Positions 139 through 25,211 of a DNA stretch of 64,000 bases are shown here, in pieces. The translations under genes and the position numbers were made by a program. Origin of the DNA: Candidatus Rubrimentiphilum sp. (lineage in GTDB: Bacteria; Vulcanimicrobiota; Vulcanimicrobiia; Vulcanimicrobiales; Vulcanimicrobiaceae); NCBI GenBank assembly GCA_035710515.1, contig DASTDE010000002.1, positions 1 to 64,000 of the forward strand, written 5' to 3'. Under the pieces are notes generated by a model. The model did not search any database. It saw nothing but the letters and a program-made list of their open reading frames with translations, and had not been told where the DNA came from. Positions within the stretch are counted from its first letter, which is position 1. Every line of letters starts with the position of its first letter.

Positions 139-251
139 GCCCGGTGGGCGGGGTGACGTTTCGATCGAGAAGTTATGAAGAACTCGCCATAGCAATACCT
201 TGGACAATGGCGCGCATTTCTCGATCGGAATGTCACCCCGCCCACCCGGGC
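139..251 (+). repeat. Copy B of the palindromic hairpin repeat family
   Basis: A 33-34 bp inverted repeat has its left arm at 139-171 and its right arm at 218-251, with one indel and two mismatches. Inside it sit the core GAAGTTATGAAGAAC (169-183) and an apical stem CGCCAT/ATGGCG (185-190 and 207-212). The stem sequence differs from copy C (25053-25162), yet pairing is kept and the core is nearly identical. It ends 14 bp from the stop codon of the leftward CheR-type gene, so it could also act in 3'-end formation of that operon. Confidence 0.75.
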
Positions 252-264
252 GCTGAGTCTTCGT

Positions 265-1131
265 CTATCGCATTCTGCGGTAGATCGGGAAAACGTCGTC
301 CACTTGCCGGAACGCGCCTTCGTGAGGCGTGGAGTGGAGCGATTCGGTCGAGCTCAAGCAGATGAATCCGAAGCGCGAAAGGCTCTGCAGGAATAGGTTG
401 TGCACGCGGTACTGCAAGGTCTTGTTGAACTGCGGCAGCACACCGCGCGCGACGATGCAATGGAACTCGTTGAGGGATGCGTCGGTCGCTAAGCTGTGCG
501 TCGCGAAGATGAGATTGCGCCGGAGACTCTCGTGGAATTTCACTTTGCCGTCCGAGTAGTCGGCGAAATCGGTGATGGACTTGCGGCCGCCGCTCGCAAC
601 ATAGTCGTTGGAAAGCTCTTCGAACGACGATACGTCGTACGTCGCCTCGCGCGCGTGAGCGACTGCAATGTCGCTCAAGTCCGTCGCATACAGCATGCAA
701 CGATCCAGAAGTTCTTCCTCGGCAAGAATGGTAAGGAACGTGTAGACGTCCTCGCCGGTTGAGCATGCCGGAAACCACAGCCGCGCAAAGGTGTACGTGC
801 GCAAAAAAGCCGCGACGCGATCGCGGACTGCGCGGAAGTAATCGGGCGGACGAAACAGTTTGTTCGAGTTCGTCGACATCGCGAAAACGAACCGGCGCAG
901 CGACTCCTCGTCGTGCAAGAACCGCTCTTGCAGCCCTGAAATTGTTTCGGCGCCCTCGGCGCGCATGCGCTCGGCAACGCGCCGCTTTAACGTTCCAGGC
1001 GCGTATTCGCGAAAGTCATAGCCTCGCCATCGCAGCATGGCTTCGAGCAAGAGCGATAGCTCGATGCTCGCGAGTTCATCACTTTGGCGCTCGGCCGATG
1101 TCTCCGGCGCCGCGCGCTCCTCGATCAGCAC
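265..1131 (-). CDS. CheR-type SAM-dependent methyltransferase
   Basis: This 288-residue protein has the two-part CheR architecture: an N-terminal all-alpha region (about 20-85) and a SAM-binding domain. It shows CSTGED at 123-128 (family form GCSTGEE), FRPPDYF near 93-99 (family FFRDPxxF) and a DLS acidic-loop motif near 150. The late CRNV motif is degenerate (VARGVL). CheR enzymes methylate glutamates of chemoreceptors. Here no receptor or CheB is nearby; the gene follows the poly-HAMP hybrid kinase, with GTG directly after the kinase TAG. That suggests a signalling module with the kinase as partner (inference). The divergent motifs leave open reduced activity or a non-chemotaxis substrate. 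Confidence 0.8.
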   Translation of the reverse strand: MLIEERAAPETSAERQSDELASIELSLLLEAMLRWRGYDFREYAPGTLKRRVAERMRAEGAETISGLQERFLHDEESLRRFVFAMSTNSNKLFRPPDYFRAVRDRVAAFLRTYTFARLWFPACSTGEDVYTFLTILAEEELLDRCMLYATDLSDIAVAHAREATYDVSSFEELSNDYVASGGRKSITDFADYSDGKVKFHESLRRNLIFATHSLATDASLNEFHCIVARGVLPQFNKTLQYRVHNLFLQSLSRFGFICLSSTESLHSTPHEGAFRQVDDVFPIYRRMR

Positions 1132-4100
1132 CTATCTGTTAAGCCAGACCCGCAGCAACGAAATGAGCTGATCCATGTCGACGGGCTTGCTGATGTATTC
1201 GGATGCGCCCGCCGCAATCGAACTCTCGCGGTCGCCCTTCATCGCCTTCGCAGTGAGAGCGATGATCGGCAGATCCTTGAAGCGCGGATTACCGCGGATG
1301 CGCCGGATGGTCTCGTAGCCGTCCATCTCAGGCATCATGATGTCCATCAGCACGATGTCGATGGCCGGATCGCGCATCAAGTGGTCGATGCCTTCTTGGC
1401 CGCTTTCAGCGCTAACGGATTGCAGATGATGCGCTTCGAGCGCCGAGCTCAGGGCATAGATGTTGCGCGCGTCGTCGTCAACGATCAGGACTTTCTTGTT
1501 CTCCAGCGTCGCCGTTCCCAGCGGCGGTATGTCGCTGCTGCGTTTGGCCGCCGGCAGCCGTGACTCGACCTGATGCAGGAAGAACCGGGTCTCGTCCAAG
1601 AGCCGTTCGGGCGACATGGCGTCTTTGACGATCACCGCCTCGCTGAGCTTCGTCAGTTTGGTTTCCTCTTGCCGCGTCAGTTCGCGTCCCGTGTAGACGA
1701 CGATCGGCGTGCGCGCGTGTTCGGCTTGCGTACGGATGCGCTCGATCAATTGATCGCCCGGGATATCGGGCAGACCCAAATCGACCACGATACAGTCGAA
1801 CTTGTTCGAATTGAGCGCCTCCATGGCTTCGTCACCCGAGCGAACGGCAGTCACGGCAACCTCGCCGCTTCCGATCAGATTGACCATGGCGTTGAGCTGC
1901 GTGATGTCGTCTTCGATCACCAAGAGATTCTTGGTGCGCTTATCGGCGAAGCCGAGCAGGTTGTCGAACGTTTCGGTTAAGGCTTCTTCGGTGACGGGCT
2001 TGCGCAAGTGTGCGATCGCGCCCGCATCCAGCGCGCGCTGCCACTGCTCCTCGCCGGAGATGACGTGCACGGGAATGTTGGACGTCGAAGGATCGCGCTT
2101 GAGATCGGCCAGCAGTTTCCAGCCGTCCACGTCGGGCAGTCCGATGTCCAGCGTGATGGCGTCCGGCAGATACTTGCGCGCGAAGGCCAGCCCTTCGTCG
2201 CCGCTGAGCGCCACAACAGCTTTAAAGCCGCGATCGCGCGCCAGTCCGAGCAAGATGCGGCCGAAGATCGCATCGTCTTCAATCACGAGCAAGACGCGAT
2301 CCGAGCTTTCGATCCGGTCGCGGTCGTCCGAGATTGCCTCCAGTGAGGACGGCATTTCAAAACTGCGCGACGGCGCCCGCACCGGGAATTCGTCCGGCGT
2401 GTGGGCTTCGCCGATCGAACCGAACGAACGCATCGCGGACATGCTCGCGGCCCGTTCGAGCGGATGGTAGAAGGTGAACGTGCTGCCCTCTCCCAGCGTG
2501 CTCTCGACGCCGATTTCGCCGCCCAGCAAGCCCGCGATTTCGCGGCTGATTGCCAAGCCGAGGCCGGTTCCACCGAACTTGCGCGACGTGCCCATATCGG
2601 CTTGTTGGAACGCCTCGAAGATCACGTTGAACTTGTCGGGCGGGATGCCGATGCCCGAGTCGCTCACAGCGAACGCGACGGCGGGACCTTTGATCGAAGA
2701 GAGGCGGTGCTCCTGAAGCAACGAGATCTCCATCGTCACGCCGCCCTGCGTCGTAAATTTGAACGCGTTTGAAAGCAGGTTCTTCAAGATCTGCTGCAGC
2801 CGCGTCGCGTCCGTCAGCAGCGCCGCCGGAACGTCCTCGTGGCGTTTTATCGTGAACGCCAGGCCCTTGTCCGTCGCGATCTGATTGAACGTCCGGAAGA
2901 CTTCGTCCTGAATCGTTTCAAACGGAACGTCTTGCAGATCGATCGAGGTGGTGCCCGACTCGATCTTCGATAGATCGAGGATGTCGTTGATCAGTGTGAG
3001 CAAGTCGCTGCCCGCCGCCCGGATCGTCTGCGCGAACTCGATCTGCTTGCCGGTCATGTTTCCTTCGGGGTTATCCGCCAGCTGTTTCGACAGAATCAAT
3101 AGCGAGTTCAGCGGAGTACGCAACTCGTGCGACATGTTTGCCAAGAACTGCGATTTGTATTTCGAGGTAAGCGCGAGCTGCTCGGCCTTCTTTTCGAGTT
3201 CCTGACGCGCTTCATCGATCTCGCGCGTGCGGCGCTCGATCTCTTCGTTCCGCTCTTGCAGCAAGCGCGAACGCTCCTCCAACTCATCGTTCGTCTGCTG
3301 GAGCTCCATCTGCTGGCTCTGCAGCTCGTTGGTCAGCGCTTGCGACTGTTTAAGCAACTCTTCCGTGCGCATCGTCGCGCCGATGGTGTTGAGGATAACG
3401 CCGACCGACTCGGTCAGCTGGTCGAAGAACTGAAGTTGCGTCTCGTTGAAACGCTCGGTCGAAGCGAGCTCGATGACTGCGCGCACTTCGCCTTCGAAGA
3501 GCACCGGCAAAATGATCAGCGAGAGCGGTTTCGTCTCGCCCATCCCCGAGCCGATCGCCATATAGTCCGCCGGTACGTCGGTCAGCAGAATCCGCTGACG
3601 TTCGAGCAGGCATTGTCCAACCAGGCCTTCGCCCTCGCGGATCGTTCGTTGCGCGGCCTTCTTCTTGCTGACGGCGTAACTGGCCATCAGGCGCAATACT
3701 TGTTCGTCGCCGATCGGCTCGTTGATGTAAAACGCTCCCGAGTATGCGTTCACCAGCGGAGCGATCTCCGACATGATCATGCGGCTGACCGTCTTGCTGT
3801 CGCGCTGACCCTGCAGCATTGCGGTAAAACGTGCGACGTTGGTCTTCAGCCAGTCTTGCTCGGTGTTCTTGCGCGTGGTGTCGCGCAGATTTTGAATCAT
3901 TTCGTTGACGTTGCGCGTCAACTCGGCGACTTCGCCGCGCGCTTCGACTTGAACGGCGCGCGAGAGGTCGCCGCTGGTCACGGCCGTCGCAACCTCACCG
4001 ATCGCGCGAATCTGCGAGGTGAGCTGCTCGGCCAGCTGGTTGACGGAGTCGGTCAGGTCGCGCCATAGACCGGCCGCGCCCGGGACCTGGGCTTGACCGC

Positions 4101-6921
4101 CCAGTTTTCCTTCGAAGCCGACTTCGCGCGCCACGGTCGTGACTTGGTCGGCGAACGTCGCGAGCGTGTCGATCATGAAGTTGATCGTGTCGGCCAGTTG
4201 CGCGATCTCGCCCTTGGCTTCCAGCGTGAGTTTGCGTTTGAGGTCGCCGTTGGCGACGGATGTAACGACTTGCGCGATGCCGCGCACTTGGTTCGTCAGG
4301 TTGGACGCCATGAAGTTCACGTTGTCGGTAAGGTCTTTCCACGTGCCGCTGACGCCCGCGACCTGGGCTTGGCCGCCCAGTTTTCCTTCGGATCCGACTT
4401 CGCGCGCGACGCGCGTGACTTCGGATGCGAACGCGTTCAGCTGATCGACCATCGTGTTGATCGTGTCTTTGAGTTCGAGGATTTCTCCGCGAACGTCCAC
4501 CGTAATTTTCTTGGAAAGGTCGCCGAGCGCGACGGCCGTCGTCACCTTCGCGATGTTACGCACCTGCGAGGTGAGGTTCGAAGCCATCGTGTTTACGGAG
4601 TCGGTCAAGTCTTTCCACGTGCCGGCGACGCCGCGCACGAACGCTTGTCCGCCCAACCGGCCTTCCGAACCGACCTCGCGCGCGACGCGCGTAACTTCGG
4701 ATGCGAAGGCGTTCAGCTGGTCGACCATCGTGTTGATCGTGTTTTTCAACTCGAGGATTTCGCCGCGCACGTCGACGGTGATCTTCTTCGAAAGGTCGCC
4801 GTTGGCGACGGCGGTCGTTACTTCGGCAATGTTACGAACTTGGTTCGTCAAGTTCGAGGCCATCGAGTTGACCGAAAGCGTCAAGTCTTTCCACGTTCCG
4901 CTGACGCCCGCGACCTCGGCCTGGCCGCCGAGTTTGCCTTCGGAGCCGACTTCGCGCGCGACGCGCGTGACTTCGGATGCGAACGCGTTCAGCTGATCGA
5001 CCATCGTGTTGATCGTGTTTTTCAACTCGAGGATTTCGCCGCGCACGTCGACCGTGATCTTCTTCGAGAGGTCGCCCTTGGCGACGGCGGTCGTGACTTC
5101 CGCGATGTTACGCACCTGAGACGTCAGATTCGAAGCCATGAAGTTCACGGACTCGGTGAGGTCGCGCCACGTACCGCTGACGCCGGCGACCTGGGCTTGG
5201 CCGCCCAGTTTTCCTTCGGAGCCGACTTCGCGGGCGACGCGCGTCACTTCGCCTGCAAACGCGTTGAGCTGGTCGACCATAGTGTTGATCGTGTTCTTCA
5301 GTTCCAGGATCTCGCCGCGCACGTCCACAGTGATCTTGCGCGACAAGTCGCCTTTGGCGACGGCCGTCGTCACGTCGGCGATGTTTCGAACCTGCGACGT
5401 GAGGTTTGAAGCCATGCCGTTGACCGAATCCGTAAGGTCTTTCCACGTACCGCTGACGCCTTTGACGTCGGCCTGGCCGCCGAGTTTGCCTTCGGAACCG
5501 ACTTCGCGCGCGACGCGCGTGACTTCGCCCGCGAACGCGTTGAGCTGGTCGACCATCGTGTTGATGGTATTCTTCAGCTCCAGGATCTCGCCGCGGACGT
5601 TGACCGTGATCTTTCTGGAGAGGTCGCCCTTGGCGACGGCCGTGGTAACGTCGGCGATGTTACGTACTTGCGACGTCAAGTTGGCGGCCATGAAGTTCAC
5701 GGACTCGGTGAGGTCCTTCCACGTGCCGCTCACGCCGGCGACCTGCGCCTGACCGCCCAAAATGCCCTCAGAACCGACTTCGCGCGCGACGCGCGTGACT
5801 TCGGAGGCGAACGCGTTGAGCTGGTCGACCATCGTGTTGATGGTGTTTTTCAGCTCGAGAATTTCGCCGCGCACGTCCACTGTGATCTTCTTTGAAAGAT
5901 CGCCCTTGGCGACGGCCGTGGTAACTTCGGCGATGTTACGCACTTGCGAGGTCAAGTTGGACGCCATGAAGTTCACCGACTCGGTGAGGTCCTTCCACGT
6001 GCCGCTGACGCCTTGCACCTCGGCTTGGCCGCCCAAGCGTCCCTCGGATCCGACTTCGCGCGCGACGCGCGTCACTTCAGATGCGAATGCATTGAGCTGA
6101 TCGACCATCGTATTGATGGTGTCTTTGAGTTCGAGAATTTCGCCGGCCGCTTCGACCGTGATCTTGCGCGACAAGTCGCCGTTGGCAACGGCCGTCGTCA
6201 CGGCCGCGATGTTACGCACCTGCGACGTCAGGTTGCCGGCCATCGTGTTGACGGAGTCCGTCAAGTCTTTCCACGTGCCCGCGACGCCCTTGACGCTAGC
6301 TTGGCCGCCCAATTTTCCTTCGGATCCGACTTCGCGCGCGACGCGCGTCACTTCGGATGCGAATGCGTTGAGCTGGTCGACCATGGTGTTGATGAGTTTG
6401 GCCGATCGCAAGAATTCGCCGCGCAGCGGACGGCCTTCGATGTCCACCGGAATCCGTTGTCCGAGATCGCCCTGCGCGACCGACCCAAGCACGCGATTCG
6501 TTTCGGCCATCGGGGCGGTGAGATCGTCGATCAGCGCGTTGTACGCGTCTACTTGTTCTTGCCAGCTCCCGGAGGCTTCGGGAAGATTGATGCGCTGTGA
6601 AACGCGGCCTTCGCGTCCGACCAGGCGGCTGATGCGTTTGATCTCGCGCAGCATGTGCTGCTTGATCGAGACGCAGTCGTTAAAAGCTTTCGCGAGTTCC
6701 GCATCCATGCCGGCTCCGCGAAGGGGAAGCCGAACGGTGAAATCGCCGCCGTAAAACGCACGCAGTGCGTTGAGCAGCTTCCGGTCTGTTGCCGAACCGT
6801 TCGCCCCATGTGAAGCGGCCGCGCCATTCGAACGCGGCTTGCCGTTACGGGCGGTCTTGGGACTTGCCGTTGTCGCCATAAATACAAGGTGCTCCGTGGT
6901 GGATGCGGCTGACTTCCTCAT
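1132..6921 (-). CDS. Soluble poly-HAMP hybrid histidine kinase with three receiver domains
   Basis: This 1929-residue protein has no membrane segment. Residues 50-176 hold a diverged HAMP-like lead. Residues 177-1004 are nine tandem 92-residue units (DNA 3910-6393, 276-bp period), each with an [11 protein letters not shown] start and a GTWKDLT motif; the ninth is the most diverged. Then come a GAF domain (about 1025-1180), a coiled coil (1185-1255), HisKA with [14 protein letters not shown] (His1265), HATPase_c ([25 protein letters not shown]) and three REC domains with phospho-acceptor Asp near 1592, 1714 and 1860. The 92-residue repeats are the signature of fungal group III Nik1/Os-1 osmosensing kinases and bacterial relatives. 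It is probably a cytosolic stress sensor. The start is uncertain: Met15 (6879) has an upstream GGAG and may be the real one. Confidence 0.93.
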
Positions 6922-7006
6922 TGCCCGATTCGGTCAATGCCAAACTTGGGCTTGCCAGGTTTAGCAGGCGGACGCCCGGGGGAGAACCCAAAAATGCCGG
7001 GCACCC

Positions 7007-8521
7007 ATGCTTGAGCGCGGCGAGCTTCTCCATTCCCAGGCGCTCGAGTTACTCGCTGACGCCAGCGGGCTTCTCGCATCCTCATTTGAGTTATCGGCGA
7101 CCCTGCCGAGGGTGGCCGCTTTGTGCGTGGCTCGCCTGGCCGACTACTGCGCCATCGCGGGCCAGAGCGGCGAGGGCGAGGAGTTCTTCTATGAGGCCGA
7201 CCAGGGCAAGAAACTCCGGCTGAAGCGGGGGCACCCGGTGCAAATCGAGCAGGGGCTGCGTTCCCGCGGCTTTGCAAACGTCCTCATCATTCCGTTGCCC
7301 GGCCGGCAGGGTACGGTCGGCGCATTTGCGCTGGCGGCGCGCGAGGCCGGAAAATTTGACGACGCGACGCGCAAGATCGCCGAAATACTCGGCCTCCAAA
7401 TTGCCAATGCTCTGGACCAAGCTACGCTCTTCGAGCGGCAGCACCACGTGGCCGATCGTCTCCAGCGCGCCTTGTTGCCCGCGAGTTTCCCGCGCGTGCC
7501 GGGCGGACAGCTCGACGGCGCCTACCGGCCGGCCAGCGAGGAAGCCGAGGTCGGCGGCGATTGGTACGACGCGTTCGAGCTGCCCGACCATCGCATTGCG
7601 ATTTCGATGGGCGACGTGGCCGGCCACGGCTTGGAGGCGGCAACGATTATGGGCGAAGTGCGCATCGCGTTGCGCGCCGCCGCCGTGGGCGAGCGATCCC
7701 CGGCTGCAGTGCTCGAGCAGATCAACAGCGTCACGAACCTGCGCGGCGGCATCGGAATGGTGACGGCGATCTTCGCCTATTACGATCCGGCCGGTCGCGA
7801 ACTCACCTACGCCGTCGCCGGCCATCCGCCGCCCGCGCTAATCGTTGAAGGCGGCTTCGCCGGATACTTGCCCGGCGGTGGAGTTCCGCTCGGCATCGGC
7901 AATGCGATCGATACGCGCGACTGGACGATCACGCTGCCGCCTCGCAGTTGGGTTATCTTCTACACCGATGGCATGACCGAATATGGCCGCGACGTGATCG
8001 CGGGCGAAGAACGCTTGCTCGAAGCCGGCGTTCGCGCGTGCGAATCCGATCCGGAGAATCCGGCGATGGCGCTGCAGGAACGTATCTTCAACGAATCCGT
8101 GAACCGGGACGATGCTGCCGCGCTGGCGCTTTCATGTTTTGACGGACCGGTCCCCACGCGCATGGAGTTTTCGGCCGTCCCGATGACGGCTCCGATCGTG
8201 CGCGCGATGATACACCGGTTTTGCGACGAGCACAAACTTGCCGATGACCAACGCTTCGCACTGACGACCGCTATCGGCGAAGCGGTCGCCAATGCCGTCG
8301 AACACGCGTACCGCAACGACGACGACGGCCGTTTCGAAGTACGGTTGAGCGCGCAGAACGATTGCATCGCCGTCCAGGTTCAAGACCGCGGGCAGTGGCG
8401 AACCTTCGAGCGCCGCGACGACCGGGGCCGCGGCATGATCATGATGCACGAACTCATGGATCGTGTGCGCATCAACTCCACGCAGCACGGCACTTGCCTA
8501 AGCATGGTCCTGAATCTTTGA
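7007..8521 (+). CDS. GAF / SpoIIE-type PP2C phosphatase / anti-sigma HATPase fusion
   Basis: In 504 residues, a GAF-like domain spans about 20-145 and a SpoIIE/RsbU PP2C domain about 150-375, with VGGDWYDAF (182-190), DVAGHG, AGHPPP, YTDGMTEYG and RDDAAALA metal and core motifs. A C-terminal RsbW-type HATPase spans about 385-504 with N-box EAVANAVEHAY and a G-rich box GRGMIMM. Such proteins usually control partner-switching (anti-sigma/anti-anti-sigma) stress pathways: the phosphatase dephosphorylates an STAS antagonist and the kinase domain rephosphorylates it or binds a sigma factor. It is transcribed divergently from the poly-HAMP kinase, separated by about 85-125 bp, so shared control is likely. 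A GGGGGAG lies about 22 nt before the chosen ATG, farther than usual. Confidence 0.9.
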   Translation: MLERGELLHSQALELLADASGLLASSFELSATLPRVAALCVARLADYCAIAGQSGEGEEFFYEADQGKKLRLKRGHPVQIEQGLRSRGFANVLIIPLPGRQGTVGAFALAAREAGKFDDATRKIAEILGLQIANALDQATLFERQHHVADRLQRALLPASFPRVPGGQLDGAYRPASEEAEVGGDWYDAFELPDHRIAISMGDVAGHGLEAATIMGEVRIALRAAAVGERSPAAVLEQINSVTNLRGGIGMVTAIFAYYDPAGRELTYAVAGHPPPALIVEGGFAGYLPGGGVPLGIGNAIDTRDWTITLPPRSWVIFYTDGMTEYGRDVIAGEERLLEAGVRACESDPENPAMALQERIFNESVNRDDAAALALSCFDGPVPTRMEFSAVPMTAPIVRAMIHRFCDEHKLADDQRFALTTAIGEAVANAVEHAYRNDDDGRFEVRLSAQNDCIAVQVQDRGQWRTFERRDDRGRGMIMMHELMDRVRINSTQHGTCLSMVLNL

Positions 8522-8576
8522 ACAGGCGTATCCGCGCTGCGCGCTCCACGCCCCCCGCCGGCCTGAGCTGGACGAA

Positions 8577-8603
8577 GGGGGCCGGGGCCCCCGGCCTTCG
8601 GCC
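8577..8603. terminator. GC-rich inverted repeats between convergent genes
   Basis: A GCCGGG/CCCGGC stem (8581-8595) overlaps a second stem GGCC-TTC-GGCC (8593-8603), followed by CCCTTTT at 8610-8616. It lies between the stop of the SpoIIE-type gene and the stop of the ketosynthase gene, where a bidirectional terminator is expected. The T-run is short, so this is tentative. Confidence 0.3.
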
Positions 8604-8614
8604 CATCTGCCCTT

Positions 8615-12107: not shown

Positions 12108-12119
12108 GGACCCTACCTT

Positions 12120-12362: not shown

Positions 12363-12416
12363 AGAACCGTATTACGAAGGCGAAACCGTCCGGGCCTCCC
12401 CTTTCAGGGGACCGTC

Positions 12417-13486: not shown

Positions 13487-13524
13487 GCGAAACCCCCCGC
13501 ACTGCCGAAGGGTAGGAAGTGCAG

Positions 13525-16020: not shown

Positions 16021-16508
16021 AGAATGCTGAGCACGTTACGAAGGATCTCGTTTCTCGGCATCTCACCCGCCACAATCTTGCGAATGACGCCGTCGCGCCC
16101 GATGAACACGTGCACCGGTAGCCCATTGATCAGATACTGCGCTTGCAGCGTGCCGCTATCGACTACTGCCGGGTAGACGAGGTGAAACTGCCGGCGGAAC
16201 GACTCCGCGAGCTTCGCGTTTTCAAGCTCGTCGATGCCGACGACTTGCAACCCGCGCGAGGCGTACTGTTTCTGCAGCGAATTTATATACGGCGCCTCGT
16301 CTTTGCACGGCGGACACCAGGTCGCGAAAAAATTGAGATAGACCGGCTTCCCGCGCAGCGACGAAAGCGTCAACGTCCCACCGGTTGACGTCGGTTGCGT
16401 CCAATCGGGTGCCGGCTTTGCGGCTTGCGCGAGTTGTTTGCCGCTGTTGCTCGCGCAACCGGCGAGGATTAGAACAGCGCAACCGAGGCCGATCGAGAAT
16501 TTCATCAT
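16017..16508 (-). CDS. TlpA/ResA-like thioredoxin-fold lipoprotein
   Basis: The 163-residue protein begins with a lipoprotein signal peptide whose lipobox is LAGC (Cys about 17). The mature part is a thioredoxin fold with FATWCPPCKDEAP (redox CxxC) and the cis-proline segment GLPVHVFI. Such proteins reduce disulfides outside the cytoplasm, often for cytochrome c maturation. No ccm genes are near, so the target is unknown. The ATG forms a TAATG overlap with the stop of the upstream secreted protein, which fixes this start and excludes longer upstream extensions. Confidence 0.9.
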   Translation of the reverse strand: MMKFSIGLGCAVLILAGCASNSGKQLAQAAKPAPDWTQPTSTGGTLTLSSLRGKPVYLNFFATWCPPCKDEAPYINSLQKQYASRGLQVVGIDELENAKLAESFRRQFHLVYPAVVDSGTLQAQYLINGLPVHVFIGRDGVIRKIVAGEMPRNEILRNVLSIL

Positions 16509-17047
16509 TATGGTTTTAGCAAGGCTTCTGCAATCGCAAGCGGCACGCCCTTGGCGGTAAGGTCGCTGGGAACCATCGCGCCGCCGCCGCCCATGACTTC
16601 TTTCCAACCGTGCGGGGTCTTCTTGTAAAAGTTCTGGCCGCCGCCCCAACCGCGCCATTCCATGATCGCGTAGCCATCAATCACGCGAACAAACGGGATC
16701 GTTTCGGGGAAACGCGCCGCGTGCGCGCGGACCGCTTCGACGTCGGCGGTTGGCCCAATATCGCGCCCATTGCGGGCGCTTCCAGGAACGGCGAATGGGC
16801 TGTTGCCGGTGCTCAGATCGATGACTTGCCAGCCGAAAGAAAACTTTTGCACAAGCAGATAACCGCTGGCCGGCGAGCTTTCGATGACCGCGCCCGTAAA
16901 GTGAACGACTGCGTAACGTGCGGTCGCGGCTGTAACGTGGACACTAGGATGTGTGTGAGACAGGCGCGGCTGCAAAAAGAGCAGCGCGGCGGCTTGCGGA
17001 GTCTGCGGCGCCGAGACCAACGCCGCCAGAATCAACGTTGCAATCAT
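16508..17047 (-). CDS. Secreted hypothetical protein
   Basis: The 179-residue protein has an N-terminal hydrophobic signal segment (MIATLILAALVSAPQT). The mature part has an aromatic, glycine-rich stretch (MEWRGWGGGQNFYKK) and a GGGGAMV turn but no motif I recognise. It overlaps ribF by 4 bp (ATGA) upstream and the TlpA-like lipoprotein by 1-3 bp downstream. The two exported proteins are therefore probably made together and may act together outside the inner membrane (inference). Confidence 0.7.
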   Translation of the reverse strand: MIATLILAALVSAPQTPQAAALLFLQPRLSHTHPSVHVTAATARYAVVHFTGAVIESSPASGYLLVQKFSFGWQVIDLSTGNSPFAVPGSARNGRDIGPTADVEAVRAHAARFPETIPFVRVIDGYAIMEWRGWGGGQNFYKKTPHGWKEVMGGGGAMVPSDLTAKGVPLAIAEALLKP

Positions 17048-17961
17048 CCGTATGCCGGATATGGGACGGCTTTAGCGTCGTCCTGCATTTGCGCGAGCAA
17101 GTCATCCGCGTTTTCGAATTTCCGTTGGTCGCGGACGAACCGCAAATCGCGCAAAATGAGCTCTTGGCCGTAAATCGTGTCGTGGAAATCGCGCAGCCAA
17201 GCCTCGACCGTTCGCGCTTTCCCGTTAAAGGTTGGATTTGTGCCGATCGAAACCAGGGCGGCGTGGTCACGCCCCTCGTGCCGTGCAATTCCGGCATAAA
17301 CGCCGTCCTTCGGCAGCATCTTCTGCGGAACGCGAATGTTGGCGGTCGGAAATCCCAAGTCGTGACCGCGGCCGGCGCCGACTTCCACGCTTCCGCGAAG
17401 TTCGTAGGCATGCCCGAGCAAATCGTCTGCGCCCGCGATATCGCCGTTTGCGATGAGCTCGCGAATGCGCGTGCTGGAAATGCGTTCCCCGTTTTCGTCA
17501 GCCGTGTTTTCGACCGCAGCGAACGCGACGCCGGCGGACCCAAAGACATCCGCCATCAAGCCGACGTCACCCGCGCGCGCCTTTCCGAAGCGGAACGTTT
17601 TCCCGACCACCACGCCCTGCGCTCCTAGATCGCGAATCAGCGTATCGCGCAAGAACTGTTCGGGGGTTTGCGTCGCTATCGCGGCATCGAATGGAATGAA
17701 AAAGCACTCTTCGTAGCCCGCGCGCGCGAAAAGGTCGATGCGCTCTTCAGACGTTGTAATCAACGGCGGCTCCGAGCCCGGGCGCAGAAATGCCGACGGA
17801 TGTTCTGCGAAGGTCAAGACGGCAGTACTCCAACCGGGTTTGCGCAAGCGGCGAGCTTGCCGCGCGATGTCGTGATGGCCGCGATGCATTCCATCGAAAA
17901 ACCCGATCGCTAATACGAGCGGAGTGTCGTCGGAACGCTTGAGCGCGTAGCGTACTTTCAA
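17044..17961 (-). CDS. ribF: Bifunctional riboflavin kinase / FAD synthetase
   Basis: This 305-residue protein has the usual two domains. The N-terminal nucleotidyl-transferase has GFFDGMHRGHH (HxGH-type motif, about 20-30) and ISSTRIREL. The C-terminal riboflavin kinase domain has GRGHDLGFPTANI (GxPTAN motif) and an EAWL-DFHDTIYGQ segment. It makes FMN from riboflavin and ATP, then FAD. The gene follows truB in the order seen in many bacteria (rbfA-truB-ribF) and overlaps it by 4 bp. Confidence 0.96.
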   Translation of the reverse strand: MKVRYALKRSDDTPLVLAIGFFDGMHRGHHDIARQARRLRKPGWSTAVLTFAEHPSAFLRPGSEPPLITTSEERIDLFARAGYEECFFIPFDAAIATQTPEQFLRDTLIRDLGAQGVVVGKTFRFGKARAGDVGLMADVFGSAGVAFAAVENTADENGERISSTRIRELIANGDIAGADDLLGHAYELRGSVEVGAGRGHDLGFPTANIRVPQKMLPKDGVYAGIARHEGRDHAALVSIGTNPTFNGKARTVEAWLRDFHDTIYGQELILRDLRFVRDQRKFENADDLLAQMQDDAKAVPYPAYG

Positions 17962-18830
17962 AGAAACACTTTGCGTGGGGCGAGTAGGGCGCCGTGCGTT
18001 TCGCCGACGCCGACGAGCATCCGCGACGCGTCGCGCACGAAGACATGCTTGGCCGGCGCTCCCGCCGGCAGCGGCACCATGCGGCCCGCGCGAAAGTCGG
18101 CCGAATGACGCAAATCCAAAACGATCGTCGGAAACGGAATGATCGATTCCGGCGCGATGAGCGCCTCGCTCGGATGGTCGGCAATTTGTTCGAGCGTGCG
18201 GCTCTCCTGAAGCAGAAATGCGCCCGAGCCCTCACGCACCAGCGCGCCCATGTGCGCGGGCACACCGATAGCGGCGCCTAAATCTTCACAGAGCGTGCGT
18301 ACGTAGGTCCCTTCGCTGCACGCGATCCGCAGGCGCGCGGCCGCGGCGTCGGATCCAAGCAATGTTAATCCATAAATCGTCACGGAGCGCGCTTTGCGCT
18401 CGACGGACTTACCTTCACGCGCGAGCTCGTACAGCCGTTTGCCTTCATGATGCAGCGCGCTGTGCATCGGCGGCACCTGCTCGATTCTTCCGATGAAGTC
18501 CGGCAAAACGTTCTCGAGGCGCTTAACCCAATCGGGCGGAAGCGGTGCTTCGTTTATCGTCTCGCCGTGAGCGTCGCCGGTCGAGGTCGCCTTCCCCGGA
18601 ACCAGCGTGCAAACGTAAGCTTTGCGCTGGTCGGTGAGCAACGGAATTAAGCGGGTAGCTTTACCGATCGCGATCGGCAGCACGCCGGCGGCCTGCGGAT
18701 CGAGCGTTCCTAAATGTCCGGCCGCGATGCTGCGATCTCGCCCATACAAACCGTAGATGCGCCGGATGCGCGCCACAACGTTCGCCGACGTCGGCCCCGC
18801 GGGCTTAAAGACGTTGACGAAGCCTATCAC
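17958..18830 (-). CDS. truB: tRNA pseudouridine-55 synthase
   Basis: The 290-residue protein has TruB hallmarks: GFVNVFKPAGPTS at the N-terminus, the catalytic-Asp motif AGHLGTLDPQAAGVLP, and a YVCTL beta-strand. It modifies U55 in the tRNA T-loop. GTG at 18830 is chosen because AGGAG lies 5 nt upstream, overlapping the stop of the DHH gene. Longer upstream reading in this frame would run antisense-like through that gene and has no support. It overlaps ribF downstream by 4 bp. Confidence 0.96.
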   Translation of the reverse strand: MIGFVNVFKPAGPTSANVVARIRRIYGLYGRDRSIAAGHLGTLDPQAAGVLPIAIGKATRLIPLLTDQRKAYVCTLVPGKATSTGDAHGETINEAPLPPDWVKRLENVLPDFIGRIEQVPPMHSALHHEGKRLYELAREGKSVERKARSVTIYGLTLLGSDAAAARLRIACSEGTYVRTLCEDLGAAIGVPAHMGALVREGSGAFLLQESRTLEQIADHPSEALIAPESIIPFPTIVLDLRHSADFRAGRMVPLPAGAPAKHVFVRDASRMLVGVGETHGALLAPRKVFL

Positions 18831-18838
18831 AAGGGCTC

Positions 18839-19819
18839 CTAAAGGCCCTCGGCGACCAGCGCCTCGTCCACCACCGCAATCGCATCTTTCAGCGAGCCGA
18901 CAAACGTGAGCCCGGAAGCGCGAAAGTGTCCGCCGCCGCCCAGGCGCGATGCGGCAGCCTGCACGTTGATCCGGCCGTTGCTGCGCAAACTCACCCGAAT
19001 CTCGCCGTCGTACGCTTTGAACAGTGCCGCGACGTCTACGCCTTCGATCGAGCGCAGATGTCCCACGATCTCTTCGGTGTCTTCCCCGTCGGCGTGACAA
19101 TCGGCAAGCATTGCGTCGTCGACGAACGACCATACATACCGGCCGTCATGCGCCATCCTGGCTTCATCAAGCGCGCGTCCCAGCAGTTTCAACGCCGAAA
19201 AACGCTTGTTCGCAAAAATCTCCTCGGTGATCTGATCCTTGTCCGCGCCCGCACCGATCAACTCCGCCGAAAGCAGCAGCACCTCCGGCGTGGTGTTGCT
19301 GTGCATGAAGCCGCCCGTGTCGGTCATGATCGTCGTCAGCAAGCAGGTCGCGATCTCCGGCGTGATCGGTGCGTTCAATGCGCGCAGCAAATGCATCACG
19401 CACGTTCCCGTCGAGCACTCGTGCGGCAGCACGTAATTCAGCGCCCCGAAATGCGAGTTACCGAGGTGGTGATCGATGTCGAGCACGTTCTCGCGCGCCA
19501 ATTTCGGCAGTGACTCGCCCGCGCGTGCCGTATCGCTCATGTCGCAAAAAACCCACAGGGCATCGGCCGGAAGATCGGCCGGAACGGCGCTGCTCACGAA
19601 TTCAGAGTCGGCGAGAAACCGCAGATTGCGCGGCACTGAATCCTCTTGAAAATAATGTACGCGCTTTCCCAGCCGTTTGAGCGCCAGTCCGAGCGCCAGT
19701 CCGGCTCCGAGCGTGTCGCCGTCGGGCTTGACGTGGCTCACCATCACGAACGCATCGCGTTTGCGAAGTTCCGCGGCGACTTCGTCGGTGGTCGACGCGA
19801 CCGGCTTTTCGCCGATCAC
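18839..19819 (-). CDS. nrnA: DHH-family phosphoesterase, NrnA-like oligoribonuclease / pAp phosphatase
   Basis: The 326-residue protein has DHH motif I HVKPDGDTLGAGLAL (about 30-44), motif III DIDHH, and the DHHA1 glycine motif GGGGHFRASG. NrnA degrades short oligonucleotides and 3'-phosphoadenosine-5'-phosphate, and some homologues cleave pApA from c-di-AMP turnover. Position between rbfA and truB is the common one in Gram-positive and related genomes. It overlaps rbfA by one base. Confidence 0.92.
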   Translation of the reverse strand: MIGEKPVASTTDEVAAELRKRDAFVMVSHVKPDGDTLGAGLALGLALKRLGKRVHYFQEDSVPRNLRFLADSEFVSSAVPADLPADALWVFCDMSDTARAGESLPKLARENVLDIDHHLGNSHFGALNYVLPHECSTGTCVMHLLRALNAPITPEIATCLLTTIMTDTGGFMHSNTTPEVLLLSAELIGAGADKDQITEEIFANKRFSALKLLGRALDEARMAHDGRYVWSFVDDAMLADCHADGEDTEEIVGHLRSIEGVDVAALFKAYDGEIRVSLRSNGRINVQAAASRLGGGGHFRASGLTFVGSLKDAIAVVDEALVAEGL

Positions 19820-20169
19820 TACGACGCGCCTCGAGTATCTTCGCGCAGCGTCTTGGCGAGCGCGATCGCCCGTTCGGTCGTGCGGTCCTCAACGAACGTC
19901 AGCGCAGGCGTATGCCGGAGAGCGATTTGATGCCCCAGCTCGCCGCGCAGAAAACCGGCGGCGCCGGCCAGCGCATCCATCGTCTGGCGCGCCACGTGGC
20001 GGTCGCCGATGATCGAAACGAAGACCTTGGCATGCTGCAGGTCGTGCGAGATCTCCACGTGGGTCACCGTGGTGAAACCCAAGCGCGGGTCCTTCAACTC
20101 CTGCGTGATCAGCGTGCCGAGAACGCGCTGCATCTCGTGATCGATGCGTTGTAACCGCTGCTTGTTCAT
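19819..20169 (-). CDS. rbfA: Ribosome-binding factor A
   Basis: The 116-residue protein matches RbfA in length and pattern: RLQRIDHEMQRVLGTLI at the N-terminus, LKDPRLGFTTVTHVEIS, DLQHAKVFVSI, and LRHTPALTFVEDRTTERA near the C-terminus. RbfA assists late 30S maturation and processing of the 16S 5' end. It overlaps infB by 4 bp and nrnA by 1 bp. Confidence 0.96.
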   Translation of the reverse strand: MNKQRLQRIDHEMQRVLGTLITQELKDPRLGFTTVTHVEISHDLQHAKVFVSIIGDRHVARQTMDALAGAAGFLRGELGHQIALRHTPALTFVEDRTTERAIALAKTLREDTRGAS

Positions 20170-22619
20170 GCCGGCGTCAATTCCGCGGCGACGGTCTCGA
20201 TCGCGTACGCTTCGATCACGTCGCCGACTTTAAGATCCTGATAGCGCGCAATTTGGATACCGCATTCGAAGCCTTCGGCAACTTCGCGCGCGTCGTCTTT
20301 GAAGCGGCGCAGCGACTCGATCTCGCCGTCGAAGATCACCGCGCTGTCGCGAAGCACGCGTACCTTGGCGTTGCGCTGGATCTTGCCGTCTTTGACGTAA
20401 CAACCGGCGATCGTCCCGACCTTGCTGACTTTGAAGATCTCGCGCACTTCGGCGTGACCGAGCGTTACCTCGCGCTTCACCGGCGCGAGCATGCCGCGCA
20501 TGGCCTTCTTCAGATCGTCTTCGACTTCGTAGATCACCTGATAGAAGCGCAGGTCAACGCCTTCGTTTTCGGCCAGCCGCTTCGCCGTTTCGTCCGGACG
20601 TACGTTGAAGCCGATGAGCACGCCGTTTGACGCGCTCGCGAGATTGACGTCGTTGGGCGTCACCGCGCCGACGCCGCCGTGAATGACGCGAATGTCCACC
20701 TCTTCGGTGGAGAGCGATTCCATGCGGGCGCGCAGCGCTTCGACCGAACCCTGTGCGTCGGCTTTGATAATGAGATTGAGGGTTTTCTTGCCCTCGGCCG
20801 GCATCGACATGAACGTCTCGAGCGAGACTTTCTGTCCGCCGGCAGCTTCGATGCGCACGTCGCGACGGCGCGTCTTGCGTTTGTCCGCAGCTTCGCGCGC
20901 AACGCGTTCGTCACTGACGACCATCAGCGCGTCGCCGGCCGACGGCACGTCTTGCAAGCCCATCACCTCGACGGGAATTGACGGCCCGGCTTTCTTCACT
21001 TGTTTGCCGTTGTCGTCGACCAGCGCGCGGATCTTTCCGAACGTGCCGCCCGCGACCACGATGTCGCCGACGCGCAGCGTTCCGTTTTGCACGAGAACCG
21101 TTGCGACCGCACCGCGTCCGCGATCCAGGCGCGCTTCGATCACCGCGCCGGAAGCGCGGCGATTCTTGTTGGCCTGCAGATTGCGGATGTCGGCTTCCAA
21201 CAGCACTGTTTCCAGCAACTTATCGATGCCGTCTCCCGTGCGCGCTGAAACCGGAACCATTTCGATCGTGCCGCCCCAGTCGACGGCTTGCAGGCCTTCC
21301 TCGGAAAGCTGCTGCTTCACGCGTTCGGGCTGCGCCTCGGGTTTGTCCATCTTGTTCATGGCGACGACGATTGGAACGCCGGCTGCCTTGATATGGGCGA
21401 TCGCCTCTTTGGTTTGCGGCATGACGCCGTCGTCCGCGGCCACGACGAGCACGGCAACGTCGGTTACCTTCGCGCCGCGCGCGCGCATCTCGGTGAATGC
21501 TTCGTGACCGGGCGTATCGATGAAGGTGATCTTGCGATCGTTTCTTTCCACCGTGTACGCGCCGATGCGCTGCGTGATGCCGCCCGCTTCGCCGCCGGCG
21601 ACATTCGCGCTGCGAATTTTATCCAACAGCGACGTCTTGCCGTGATCGACGTGTCCGAGCACCGTCACCACAGGCGGGCGCGGACTGAGCATTTCGGGTT
21701 TGTCTTCCTCTTGCTCGACGGTGACTTCTTCGCCGGCCTCTTTGACGACGGCGTTAAAGCCGAACTTCTTGGCAACCGCGCTGGCAACGTCGCTGGGAAT
21801 GTTTTGATTGATCGTTGCCATCGTGCCCATCTTGATGAGCTCGCCGATAACGTCTTTGGCCGGAACGATCATGGACGTCGCCAGCTCTTGCACTGTGAGC
21901 AGATCGGGAATTTCGATCGTCTCGAGTTTCGCCGGCGGCGGCGCCGCGACGACTTCAGGACGCTTCTTGCGCGTGCGCTCTTTTTCGAGCAGCAGCTCTT
22001 TCTCGCGATCTTTCTTGCTGAGCTTCTCCTCGTGCACGCGCACGCGATCGCCCGGACGCCCGCCCGAACTCGGCGCGGGTCCTTCGGTAACCGACGGGAT
22101 GCCGGGACGGAACGGCCGCGGCGGCGTTAGCGGACGGAACGGTCCGTTGCCCTGCGGACGACGCTGCGGCGCAGCTTGAATCAAACGGCCGGGTTGCGGA
22201 ACGCGCGGCGCCGGGGACGCGGATGCCGACGTAGTCGGCGGCGGCGGAGCGGGGCGCGCGGCGCCGTCGCCCGCGCGCGGAGCAACCGGTTTTACAGCCG
22301 GACGGCGCGTGGTCGTTACGGGCTTGAGCGTTGGAACGGGTTCAGGCTCGACCGCCGGGGCGGCGGGAGCTTCGGCCTTGGCCACGCGCTTGGGAGCGGC
22401 CGCTTTCGGCGGTGCCGCGGGCGCAGCGGCCTTGGCCTTGGGCGCAGGTTTGGCTAAGACTTTGCGGACCAGATCCGCCATCTGGTCGGGAACGACGCTG
22501 AGTTGATTTTTCGCTTCGAAGACGCCGCCCAAGCGCTCATTAAAGAGGGTGATCAGCTCTTTCGAAGTGAGTCCAACCTCTTTTGCGAGTTCGAATATCC
22601 GAACTTTTCCGGTAGCCAA
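20166..22619 (-). CDS. infB: Translation initiation factor IF-2
   Basis: This 817-residue protein has an N-terminal IF2_N helix (residues 1-50), an Ala/Pro-rich linker (55-190), a charged helix (195-222), a second IF2_N domain (about 235-290) and the G domain with GHVDHGKT at 322-329, DTPGHEA and NKMDKP. Domains II-IV follow to the C-terminus. It positions initiator tRNA on the 30S subunit. The start is TTG with AAAGG about 7 nt upstream and a strong hairpin (22636-22680) just before it. It overlaps rbfA by 4 bp. Confidence 0.97.
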   Translation of the reverse strand: MATGKVRIFELAKEVGLTSKELITLFNERLGGVFEAKNQLSVVPDQMADLVRKVLAKPAPKAKAAAPAAPPKAAAPKRVAKAEAPAAPAVEPEPVPTLKPVTTTRRPAVKPVAPRAGDGAARPAPPPPTTSASASPAPRVPQPGRLIQAAPQRRPQGNGPFRPLTPPRPFRPGIPSVTEGPAPSSGGRPGDRVRVHEEKLSKKDREKELLLEKERTRKKRPEVVAAPPPAKLETIEIPDLLTVQELATSMIVPAKDVIGELIKMGTMATINQNIPSDVASAVAKKFGFNAVVKEAGEEVTVEQEEDKPEMLSPRPPVVTVLGHVDHGKTSLLDKIRSANVAGGEAGGITQRIGAYTVERNDRKITFIDTPGHEAFTEMRARGAKVTDVAVLVVAADDGVMPQTKEAIAHIKAAGVPIVVAMNKMDKPEAQPERVKQQLSEEGLQAVDWGGTIEMVPVSARTGDGIDKLLETVLLEADIRNLQANKNRRASGAVIEARLDRGRGAVATVLVQNGTLRVGDIVVAGGTFGKIRALVDDNGKQVKKAGPSIPVEVMGLQDVPSAGDALMVVSDERVAREAADKRKTRRRDVRIEAAGGQKVSLETFMSMPAEGKKTLNLIIKADAQGSVEALRARMESLSTEEVDIRVIHGGVGAVTPNDVNLASASNGVLIGFNVRPDETAKRLAENEGVDLRFYQVIYEVEDDLKKAMRGMLAPVKREVTLGHAEVREIFKVSKVGTIAGCYVKDGKIQRNAKVRVLRDSAVIFDGEIESLRRFKDDAREVAEGFECGIQIARYQDLKVGDVIEAYAIETVAAELTPA

Positions 22620-22635
22620 AGTCTGCCTTTCACGT

Positions 22636-22680
22636 CGCAGGCGTAAGTGTGCCTCGGAAGCCGAGCCGAGGACGCCTGCG
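22636..22680 (-). promoter_or_regulatory. infB leader: Stem-loop immediately upstream of the infB ribosome-binding site
   Basis: On the minus strand a perfect 9-bp stem CGCAGGCGT/ACGCCTGCG encloses a second stem CCTCGG/CCGAGG with an 8-nt loop. It ends about 17 nt before the infB TTG start. A further hairpin GGCGCGC-CCG-GCGCGCC lies at 22711-22727. Both are inside the ylxR-infB gap (130 bp), which is long for this operon. A role in translation control of infB or RNA processing is inference. Confidence 0.45.
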
Positions 22681-22749
22681 CCGTCCTCAGGTCATGCTAC
22701 GCTCCTTGGCGGCGCGCCCGGCGCGCCTAATCATGGTGGTTATGCATCA

Positions 22750-23010
22750 TCATTTCACACAGCTTGAACCTTGCTGTAACCCACCTTCGGCGGCCGCAGC
22801 TGCAAGCCCCGGAAAGCGGCGGTTCTTCTCGGCCCGCTGCACGCAGCCCGCGGAGGAGCAGAGATAGACGCCCCGGCCGGGGAGGCGCTTGGCATCGTCG
22901 GCCAGCCACTCCCGGGCCCCACCGCGCACGAACCGGCGCATCGAGGCCTGGGGACGGCGCTCACGGCACCCCGCACACTGGCGTACAACCTCTCTAGCCT
23001 TCGCCGTCAT
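22750..23010 (-). CDS. ylxR: YlxR (DUF448) nucleoid/RNA-binding protein
   Basis: The 86-residue protein has the family pattern RQCAGCRERRPQASMRRFV, the GRGVYLCSSAGC strand and a C-terminal basic tail. Its location between nusA and infB is diagnostic. YlxR homologues bind RNA and act as nucleoid-associated regulators in some Gram-positive bacteria. It overlaps the end of nusA by 17 bp. Confidence 0.93.
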   Translation of the reverse strand: MTAKAREVVRQCAGCRERRPQASMRRFVRGGAREWLADDAKRLPGRGVYLCSSAGCVQRAEKNRRFPGLAAAAAEGGLQQGSSCVK

Positions 23011-24208
23011 CGGTCGTCAGCCGCTCGCGCTTGAACTCCTCAAGTTTGCGGATCAGATCTTCGTCCAGCACGGGCGCTGCCTCGCCCTCTTCGGCTTCGA
23101 CCGTCTCCTCGGCGGCCGGCGCGGCTTGCCGTTCCGCGCGTTCGGCCAAGTAGCGCTCGCGGGCTTCGGCGGCTTCGGTTTCGCTGGTAATGTCCAGACG
23201 CCAGCCCGTCATCTGCGCGGCCAGGCGAACGTTCTGGCCTTCTTTTCCGATTGCCAGCGAGAGTTGATAGTCGGGCACGATCACGAGCGCGACGCCGTCG
23301 TCTTCGAACAGCTCGACGCTGAGCACTTTGGCCGGCGCCAGGGCATTCATGATGAGCGTGGCCTGATCCGGATCCCATTTGATCACGTCGACCTTCTCGC
23401 CGCGCAGCTCGTCAGAGACGTTTGCGATGCGGCTCGATTTCGGTCCCAGGACTGCACCGATCGGATCGACCTCCGCGCGCACGCTGCGGACCGCGACCTT
23501 CGTGCGGCTGCCGGGTTCGCGCGCAATCGCCATAATCTCGACCGTACCGTCCTCGACTTCGGGCACGTTGAACTCGAGCAGACGCTGCACGAGCCCTTCG
23601 GCCGAACGCGATAGAATAACGCTCGGGCCTTTCGGCGATTTACGAACATCTAAAACGTACGCGCGGATGAAGTCGTTGATGCGGAAGTTTTCGCGCGGCA
23701 CTTGTTCGGAGAGCGGCAGCATTGCCTCGTCCTTGCCGTCGAGCAGCACGTACATGTTGCGCTGTTCGAAGCGCTGCACCGTACCCGTCACGATGTCATT
23801 CAGCTTGGCGGCATATTTATTGTAGACCGTGTCGCGCTCGGCTTCACGGATACGCTGAACGATGACCTGTTTGGCCGTCTGTGCGGCGATGCGGCCGAAG
23901 TCTTTGGGCGTCACCTCTTCGTCGAAATAGTCGCCGGGTTCGTATTGCGGACCGGCCTCCTTCGGCGTAAGTTCCAACTTCGGATCGGTGACTTCCGTCG
24001 CGACGATCCGCCGGTGAAAGACTTTGTACTCGCCGGTTTGGCGGTCGACGGAAACGATCGCGTTGGCTTCGCTTCCAAAATGCCGCTTGTAGGCGGTCAG
24101 CAGCGCAGCTTCCAGCGCCTCGATCAACATCTCGAACGGAATATTGCGTTCCCGCGAGATGTATTGGAGGACGTCGATAAGGCGTTCTTCGGTCATTTGT
24201 TCAGGCAT
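22994..24208 (-). CDS. nusA: Transcription termination/antitermination factor NusA
   Basis: The 404-residue protein has the NusA N-terminal RNA-polymerase-binding domain (ERLIDVLQYISRERNIPFEMLIEALEAALLTAYKR), an S1 domain (about 135-200: IVTGTVQRFEQRNMYVLLDG) and two KH domains with GAVLGPKSSRIANVSDEL and LAIGKEGQNVRLAAQMTGW. The C-terminus is a short acidic tail rather than the AR repeats of E. coli, as in many non-proteobacteria. It overlaps rimP by 8 bp. Confidence 0.97.
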   Translation of the reverse strand: MPEQMTEERLIDVLQYISRERNIPFEMLIEALEAALLTAYKRHFGSEANAIVSVDRQTGEYKVFHRRIVATEVTDPKLELTPKEAGPQYEPGDYFDEEVTPKDFGRIAAQTAKQVIVQRIREAERDTVYNKYAAKLNDIVTGTVQRFEQRNMYVLLDGKDEAMLPLSEQVPRENFRINDFIRAYVLDVRKSPKGPSVILSRSAEGLVQRLLEFNVPEVEDGTVEIMAIAREPGSRTKVAVRSVRAEVDPIGAVLGPKSSRIANVSDELRGEKVDVIKWDPDQATLIMNALAPAKVLSVELFEDDGVALVIVPDYQLSLAIGKEGQNVRLAAQMTGWRLDITSETEAAEARERYLAERAERQAAPAAEETVEAEEGEAAPVLDEDLIRKLEEFKRERLTTDDGEG

Positions 24209-24707
24209 GCAGTTTTCGTTTTTCCTTAGCGCGTTTGAAATCGGCGCGCACGTCGTATTCCAGGTTGGCAGATTTGATCGTCGCTAACGGAAGCGGCAAT
24301 TCGCCGTTTTCCGTTTCCAAAATAACCGCGGTGCCCCGGACGCCGCGCAGCACGCCGCGATGCGTCTTGCCTCCGCGCACGAGCAGCGACGTGACGATCT
24401 TTACGTCGCGGCCCGAGAAGCGTTCGTAGTCTCCCGGTTTGGTCAGCGGGCGGTCGAGCCCGGCCGACTCCACTTCGAGCGTGTAGGGTTGGTCGTATGC
24501 GTTCAAGCGCGCGTTGATCGCGGCCGCGATTCGCTCGCACGTCCGCACGTCGACGCCACCCTCCCGGTCGATCGTCACGCTCAGCACGCTCTTGTTTCCG
24601 CTGCCGTGCGTTCCGTGGTGCACGATCTCCACGCCCGCAAAACGCTCGTCGCGCGCGATCTCCGTGACCGCGTGCTCGAATTCGCCGGCAAGTGACCTTT
24701 CCACCAA
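24201..24707 (-). CDS. rimP: Ribosome maturation factor RimP
   Basis: The 168-residue protein has RimP motifs: LSVTIDREGGVDVRTCERIA (N-terminal domain), YTLEVESAGLDRPLTKPGDYERF, and a C-terminal SH3-like barrel. It is required for 30S assembly. It is the first gene of the rimP-nusA-ylxR-infB-rbfA-nrnA-truB-ribF unit and is preceded by a leader of about 290 nt and a promoter at 25002-25030. Confidence 0.95.
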   Translation of the reverse strand: MVERSLAGEFEHAVTEIARDERFAGVEIVHHGTHGSGNKSVLSVTIDREGGVDVRTCERIAAAINARLNAYDQPYTLEVESAGLDRPLTKPGDYERFSGRDVKIVTSLLVRGGKTHRGVLRGVRGTAVILETENGELPLPLATIKSANLEYDVRADFKRAKEKRKLHA

Positions 24708-24995
24708 AACCCCCGTAGAACAACGAAGCGCGGGACCTGCCCACGCTCATGACGACCTACCATCGCCTAGCATACCGGAAAAAGGCGACGGGCCGCAACC
24801 CCAGTGGGTCCGGCCCCTCGCTTCTGTTACCTACCTCTGGTTACGCGTTTACGAGCACGCTCTTTGTCCGGTTTACGTCCGGCTGCCGCTGGGCGCTCGT
24901 CTAGCGCTCCTAAATCCGGCGTGCTCCGCGGGCTCTGTGGCCCGGTGGATCTTGCGGTTCCAACCGCCCTCCTGTTCTTTTGTCTCGTTGAGACA
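24708..24995 (-). promoter_or_regulatory. Long 5' leader of the rimP operon with hairpins and possible leader peptide
   Basis: No recognised gene occupies this stretch. On the minus strand the predicted transcript begins near 24995. It contains a GTCTC-AAC-GAGAC hairpin (24982-24994), a strong AGGAGG (24968-24973) followed 4 nt later by a TTG that opens a 17-codon Arg/Pro-rich reading frame ending at 24910, and a hairpin GCGGTT-GG-AACCGC (24954-24967) overlapping that start. Whether the short frame is translated is unknown. Confidence 0.35.
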
Positions 24996-25001
24996 GCTCT
25001 G

Positions 25002-25030
25002 ATTTTACGCCCCCTAAAGTTGACTTTCAA
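25002..25030 (-). promoter_or_regulatory. Sigma-70-type promoter for the rimP-nusA-infB operon
   Basis: Read leftward, the -35 box TTGAAA (25025-25030) and -10 box TAAAAT (25002-25007) are separated by exactly 17 bp. The predicted start is near 24995, giving a leader of about 290 nt before rimP. The promoter lies in the left outer arm of the palindrome at 25005-25211. Confidence 0.65.
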
Positions 25031-25211
25031 TAAGCAAGCTGTGGACAAGTTCGGGGGGTATCCGAGGTGGGATTCGATCCGAGAAATGCGTCCGAGCGCC
25101 CGAATAAAAGTGAGTCGGGGTTCTTTATAACTTCTCGGATCGAACCCCACCTCGGCTCCCCCACTCTCGAGTCTGCGCTTGCCTATTAAATCTCGACTTT
25201 AAGGGGCGTAA
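25005..25211 (-). repeat. Copy C of the palindromic hairpin family, a 207-bp nested palindrome
   Basis: Two nested inverted repeats are visible. Outer arms are 25005-25039 and 25177-25211 (35 nt each, 29 identical). Inner arms are 25053-25085 and 25132-25162. The core GTTCTTTATAACTTC (minus-strand sense GAAGTTATAAAGAAC) is at 25120-25134, and an apical stem CCCGA/TCGGG encloses an 11-nt loop. Together with 24708-24995 it fills the 516-bp space between rimP and the TonB-like gene. Outward promoter-like boxes are in both outer arms, strong to the left and weak to the right. Confidence 0.75.

Follow-up and report, generated by a model that had tools for sequence, protein, structure and literature searches.

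A 64-kb stretch at the start of contig C2 (64,000 nucleotides, hereafter the window) of the genome of Candidatus Rubrimentiphilum sp. (GCA_035710515.1; 2.54 Mb, 5 contigs) contains three copies, A, B and C, of a hairpin element with a conserved core. On the basis of sequence comparisons, we favour, with a probability of about 0.55, the view that these are dispersing gene-end elements in which hairpin-templated copying keeps the arms palindromic, and that they are probable 3'-end modules. In a second hairpin family (family 2), each copy has arms of its own, which are near-perfect and remain palindromic while changing, and the core has undergone inversion; the hairpins are located at gene ends. 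The relatives used for comparison are metagenome bins of Candidatus Eremiobacterota (WPS-2; e.g. bin6B, palsa_1493, palsa_1523 and bin6A), a poorly known phylum of soil and moss bacteria, and the genomes are species representatives, such that all comparisons are between species. The copies in the window, which together with their counterparts elsewhere make up family 1, are the following:

1-75, minus strand: copy A, core at 26-40, one arm at about 41-70; cut by the contig start
137-252, plus strand: copy B, arms at 137-171 and 218-252, core GAAGTTATGAAGAAC at 169-183, apical region at 184-213 (30 nt), 3' box GCATTTC at 214-220
25050-25165, minus strand: inner perfect hairpin of copy C, core at 25120-25134, apical region at 25090-25119 (30 nt), 3' box at 25083-25089
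25005-25211, minus strand: decayed outer inverted repeat around copy C, arms at 25005-25039 and 25177-25211, 83% complementary

The family-1 core, GAWGTTATRAAGAAC, is followed 29-31 nt downstream by (G)CATTTC, and six copies are known: A to D in this genome (G000) and one each, E and F, in two congeneric genomes, where the core takes the form GATGTTATAAAGAAC. A preliminary description of the window had reported three copies with a conserved core, pointing in both orientations, with AAATGCG opposite the core in B and C. All of this was recovered, the core GAAGTTATRAAGAAC standing at 26-40 (minus strand), 169-183 (plus) and 25120-25134 (minus). Exact core matches number four in the whole genome (none with a reversed control pattern), the fourth being copy D at G000:C1:386762. 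The core is separated from the CATTTC-like box by 30 nt in A-D, 31 nt in E and 29 nt in F, and the apical region between the GAA/TTC stem ends measures 46 nt in A-D, about 47 nt in E and 45 nt in F. Single-strand folding of the motif strand gives z scores of -10.7 for B and -8.6 for C. The missing arm of copy A and the remainder of its loop are found in the final ~50 bases of contig C3 (L103); the two halves overlap by 9 nt in the loop (AACGCCCAG), and gene order in five other species confirms the adjacency of the two flanking genes. Contigs C3 and C2 join inside copy A, this hairpin being an assembly break point. As to position, B, C and D (C counted with its outer arms) each lie no more than about 13 bp from a stop codon: 12 bp separate the end of copy B from that of cheR (265), and the outer repeat of copy C ends at the same distance from that of the neighbouring gene (25224).

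When the six copies are aligned, 97.5% of the cells in their stems (at least 24 bp) are standard pairs, both sides have changed at 16 of the 27 stem positions, none of 500 shuffles does as well, and controls in which the register is slid reach at most 49% pairing. The long stems thus differ in sequence yet pair, as first noticed, and the alignment bears out that the copies are not simple duplicates. The apical stems tell a different story. The proposed covariation of CGCCAT/ATGGCG in B with CCCGA/TCGGG in C had to be rejected: the two stems occupy non-homologous positions, the short apical stem (3-4 bp) that all but one of the six copies possess has changes in only one of its two sides, and the stem of B is in a different register. 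From the covariation, the preliminary description had gone on to argue for a structured RNA or protein-bound hairpin. A hairpin family with a fixed core does stand, but covariation alone is not proof of selection on RNA because the arms of family 2 are copy-private and are changed by matched double substitutions, and its inner helices contain few G.U pairs, as would be expected where one arm is copied from the other at the level of DNA.

The behaviour of the arms is best seen in family 2. One genome (G012) holds 18 copies whose cores are up to 97.6% identical (mean 63%), and whose arms, of 33-44 bp, are near-perfect palindromes sharing a mean identity of 31% between copies, which is no more than random. 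In every one of the 18, one arm lies no more than 18 bp from the stop codon of a long open reading frame (ORF), compared with 2.6% within 30 bp in a control that shifts positions within the same loci; in 15 of them the opposite side has the stop codon of a convergent ORF at a distance of up to 60 bp (9.8% in the control). Two of these 18 sites (L254 and L266) are empty in a sister genome (G079). Both empty sites contain, as host sequence, the outermost 9-18 bp of one arm, but not the inverted copy of this flank that makes up the opposite arm. A third site (L255) has its core inverted between conserved arms in one genome relative to the other. The arms have changed at two further sites shared by the two genomes, by six matched double changes and three single ones. 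Matched double substitutions between these sister species, whose divergence is about 5%, include many transversions. Within the genus of the window, too, the interior of family-2 elements is flipped at orthologous sites.

Family 2 combines a long variable outer stem with two inner hairpins (a three-way-junction core) bearing GGA in the apical loops, and one inner hairpin includes the conserved strand CUUCAAAACUUUGUUYU. Its core model finds matches in 44 of 149 phylum genomes, spread over 18 genera and reaching 24 in a single genome. Among 66 distinct sequences, in an alignment fitted to the structure, 96.9% of cells pair and 657 cells are double-changed, few being changed on one side; G.U pairs are rare in the inner helices. 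In predicted folds of the family, G.U pairs favour the GGA strand (54 versus 18), with the excess in the outer arms. Both apical loops carry GGA in 58 of 67 sequences. Rfam returned no family-2 match in the window, nor in a permissive search with the first of the two members listed below. A common origin of the cores of the two families was considered on the grounds of shared words (GAAG, AAGAAC); the order of these words differs and the G.U bias falls on opposite strands in the two families, and homology is not claimed. The window has two members of family 2:

43169-43330, plus strand: element I1, matched by model R2 at 43197-43304, with a long outer stem, two inner hairpins and GGA loops
49401-49548, plus strand: element I6, matched by model R2 at 49426-49525, between rho and a pseudouridine synthase gene

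I1 and the stop codon of a tonB-like gene (43343) are 12 bp apart, and I6 lacks the apical GGA hairpin of P2. Repeats of the TTCGACAAGCTCAGGATGACA type adjoin I6 at 49575-49665 and are absent from this place in the congeners.

Direct evidence of gain in family 1 comes from the rpoD locus. The junction of rpoD with a convergent gene carries copies D, E and F in G000, G004 and G005, in each case between the two stop codons. The same junction is empty, with about 6 bp, in three congeners (G002, G003 and G006) and has a short gap in a more distant outgroup (L117) as well, these element-free junctions measuring ~6-10 bp overall; the element was therefore gained at this junction within the genus. 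E, possibly a separate insertion, is oriented opposite to D and F. D and F each have a half remnant of an E-like hairpin beside a full hairpin; they are identical over the core and the inner ~17 bp of the stem and have unrelated outer stems, each perfectly paired. An origin of the arms from the target was rejected for rpoD, where an empty site of ~6 bp cannot supply them. The A/B junction and the C junction are occupied by different hairpins in sister species. At the position of copy C (25040-25180) the sister species (L164-L168) have another conserved hairpin, TGCCGGCC-TCGCTTTT..ATGGTTAATCGCTC-GGCCGGCA, which perhaps represents a third family.

These observations suggest the following scheme. 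The unit would be a conserved core and GCATTTC box placed around an apical region of ~46 nt and carried on a largely copy-private stem, just downstream of a stop codon. The cores would spread and the arms would not travel unchanged with them; instead, the arms would be built and maintained by hairpin-templated DNA copying, that is, by template switching at replication in which one arm serves as template for the other. Flanking host sequence would on occasion be copied inverted, thereby extending the stem, and the core could flip. Such a process would account for double changes that are transversional and have few G.U intermediates, for inverted copies of the flank and for flips of the interior. 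Two reports (PMC3820800, PMC7202029) describe template switching at quasi-palindromes, in E. coli and yeast, as extending the identity between arms. The concerted arm changes and interior inversion expected of a template-switch palindrome are found in family 2; the process is known as a mutational one and not as a means of upkeep for copy-specific arms around a conserved core. The retained function is probably that of an orientation-tolerant transcription-end or mRNA 3'-end hairpin that acts for either neighbouring gene or for both, and the core would be what is bound or recognized. Given that G.U pairs favour one strand in both families, selection at the RNA level on that strand probably acts on part of the stem as well. 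Whether the elements amount to a new kind of mobile element, in which a core arriving at a gene end builds private arms by inverted copying of the flank and can itself flip, is a more tentative matter, and we would put it forward as a possibility with a substantial chance of being right, though less likely than not.

Several points weigh against this scheme. The G.U pairs in the predicted family-1 folds favour the motif strand (20 versus 11), suggesting partial selection as RNA. Private arms and template switching are carried over to family 1 mainly from family 2, on which the family-1 mechanism leans because family 1 has only six copies, and the family-2 cores are not demonstrably homologous to those of family 1. 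The inverted copy of the target spans only 9-18 bp, at two empty sites, and the polarity of L254 and L266 rests on two genomes, so that loss in G079 may account for them instead of gain. Finally, the family-1 stems lack the U-tract of a classical terminator, none being found on direct reading of the flanks of B, C and D.

The alternatives were weighed against the same evidence. Conventional structured RNAs (small RNAs or elements of the 3' untranslated region), with stems covarying through ordinary compensatory evolution for RNA folding, would account for the strong covariation, the invariant core, the excess of G.U pairs on one strand (seen in family 1 and, for family 2, in its outer arms), and the GGA in both apical loops of most family-2 sequences. 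Compensatory evolution fits poorly, however, with arms that are unrelated in one genome whose cores are up to 97.6% identical, with double changes outnumbering single ones at a divergence of about 5%, with family-2 inner helices in which G.U pairs are scarce and with flips of the core at orthologous sites, and we regard this explanation as unlikely. The dispersed, intergenic and palindromic nature of the elements and their absence from some orthologous sites (rpoD; L254 and L266) are suggestive of a classical non-autonomous transposon, of the miniature inverted-repeat transposable element (MITE), repetitive extragenic palindrome (REP) or ERIC type, mobilized in trans by a transposase recognizing terminal inverted repeats. 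Such an enzyme would find no common terminal repeat here, the outer arms being unshared between copies. Moreover, no Y1 transposase (PF01797) was found in any of seven genus genomes, five control genomes being positive, and inspection of rpoD revealed no clear target-site duplication. Classical transposition is less probable still.

Plain bidirectional terminators that arose repeatedly in place, without mobility and with the core as a shared protein site, are improbable in our estimation: their long GC-rich stems and their location between convergent stop codons would be expected of such terminators, but near-identical cores set in unrelated arms at separate loci, empty orthologous sites and the missing U-run after family-1 stems would not. 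As for false palindromes produced by assembly or amplification, copy A does lie at a contig end and long palindromes do disturb sequencing; the recurrence of the design in 44 independent genomes and the existence of orthologous elements with compensatory changes between species leave an artefact with hardly any credibility. If the arms are indeed shaped by hairpin-templated copying, the elements bear on a common argument: covariation of paired positions is conventionally taken as proof that an RNA structure is conserved, and a DNA-level process may yield perfect covariation in arms that are not shared, suggesting that covariation tests can be misled at hairpins. Across a phylum about which little is known, hairpin elements of this sort mark the ends of genes, with family 2, which has no Rfam match, in at least 44 of 149 genomes. 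Close genome pairs capture insertion, arm change and core inversion, so that ideas on how palindromes grow and are repaired can be tested in natural genomes.

Among known systems, ERIC/BOX and other intergenic palindromic repeats (MITE-like) are the closest in general appearance, being short, dispersed, intergenic, folding into long hairpins in either orientation and missing from some orthologous sites. In the ERIC/BOX families the palindromic sequence itself is common to all copies. Here only the core is common and the arms are copy-private: in place of the terminal inverted repeat shared by MITE and ERIC copies, family-1 outer arms differ and family-2 arms are 31% identical. REP/REPIN sequences with RAYT transposases are also intergenic hairpins, often near gene ends, but the genus lacks a Y1 transposase and the elements lack a conserved REP stem. 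With bidirectional intrinsic terminators they share a position just 3' of stop codons and between convergent genes, and differ from them in the absence of a U-tract after the family-1 stem, in the conserved internal core and in the far longer stem. The elements are, in sum, like ERIC/BOX in dispersal and position; they have no palindrome shared by the copies, no RAYT transposase in the genus and no terminator U-tract.

A further resemblance concerns CsrA-binding RNAs of the CsrB/RsmY type, which present GGA, often as CAGGAUG, in apical hairpin loops. The GGA apical loops of family 2 are alike, although there are two per dispersed element as opposed to many per small RNA, and family 1 lacks consistent GGA loops. 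No match to CsrA was found in ~0.95 Mb of sequence covering only parts of genomes, and the putative link between family 2 and CsrA, drawn from the likeness of the loop motif to CsrB repeats, is a lead only. Among the papers searched, none links Eremiobacterota with inverted repeats or CsrA.

Family 1 is narrowly distributed. Covariance-model searches of 99 family and 149 phylum genomes, run with stricter filters under which weak matches may be lost, found none beyond three species of one genus, and a permissive search of seven congeners gave no further convincing copy. Loose matches to the core in the genome itself and in relatives lacked a hairpin context, except for E and F. The exact core had no match in GTDB representatives and viral contigs, BLAST against plasmids and phages gave none, and a viral scan with the family-2 pattern was equally negative. 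Consistent with the initial impression that no known RNA family is involved, Rfam 15 returned no match in the window at gathering score. Permissive Rfam matches far below threshold, to microRNA precursors and to sX13 at copy C, with weak ones also at I1, were rejected, the microRNA-precursor matches because they are expected of any long hairpin.

The genes flanking the elements include cheR (265-1131), nusA (22994-24208), an ORF at 24226-24750 that is named rimP-like by its position and has no Pfam match, and bacA-like, tonB-like and pseudouridine synthase genes. Upstream of rimP-nusA, a block of ~240 nt (24755-25000, minus strand) is strongly conserved in seven congeners and looks structured; it has no Rfam match and is possibly a leader or a non-coding RNA. 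Elsewhere in the assembly, contigs C3 and C4 start with identical sequence (L092, L093), and contig C5 starts with the reverse complement of the sequence that closes contig C1 (L094, L089); since these contig ends match each other, the contigs break at other repeats as well.

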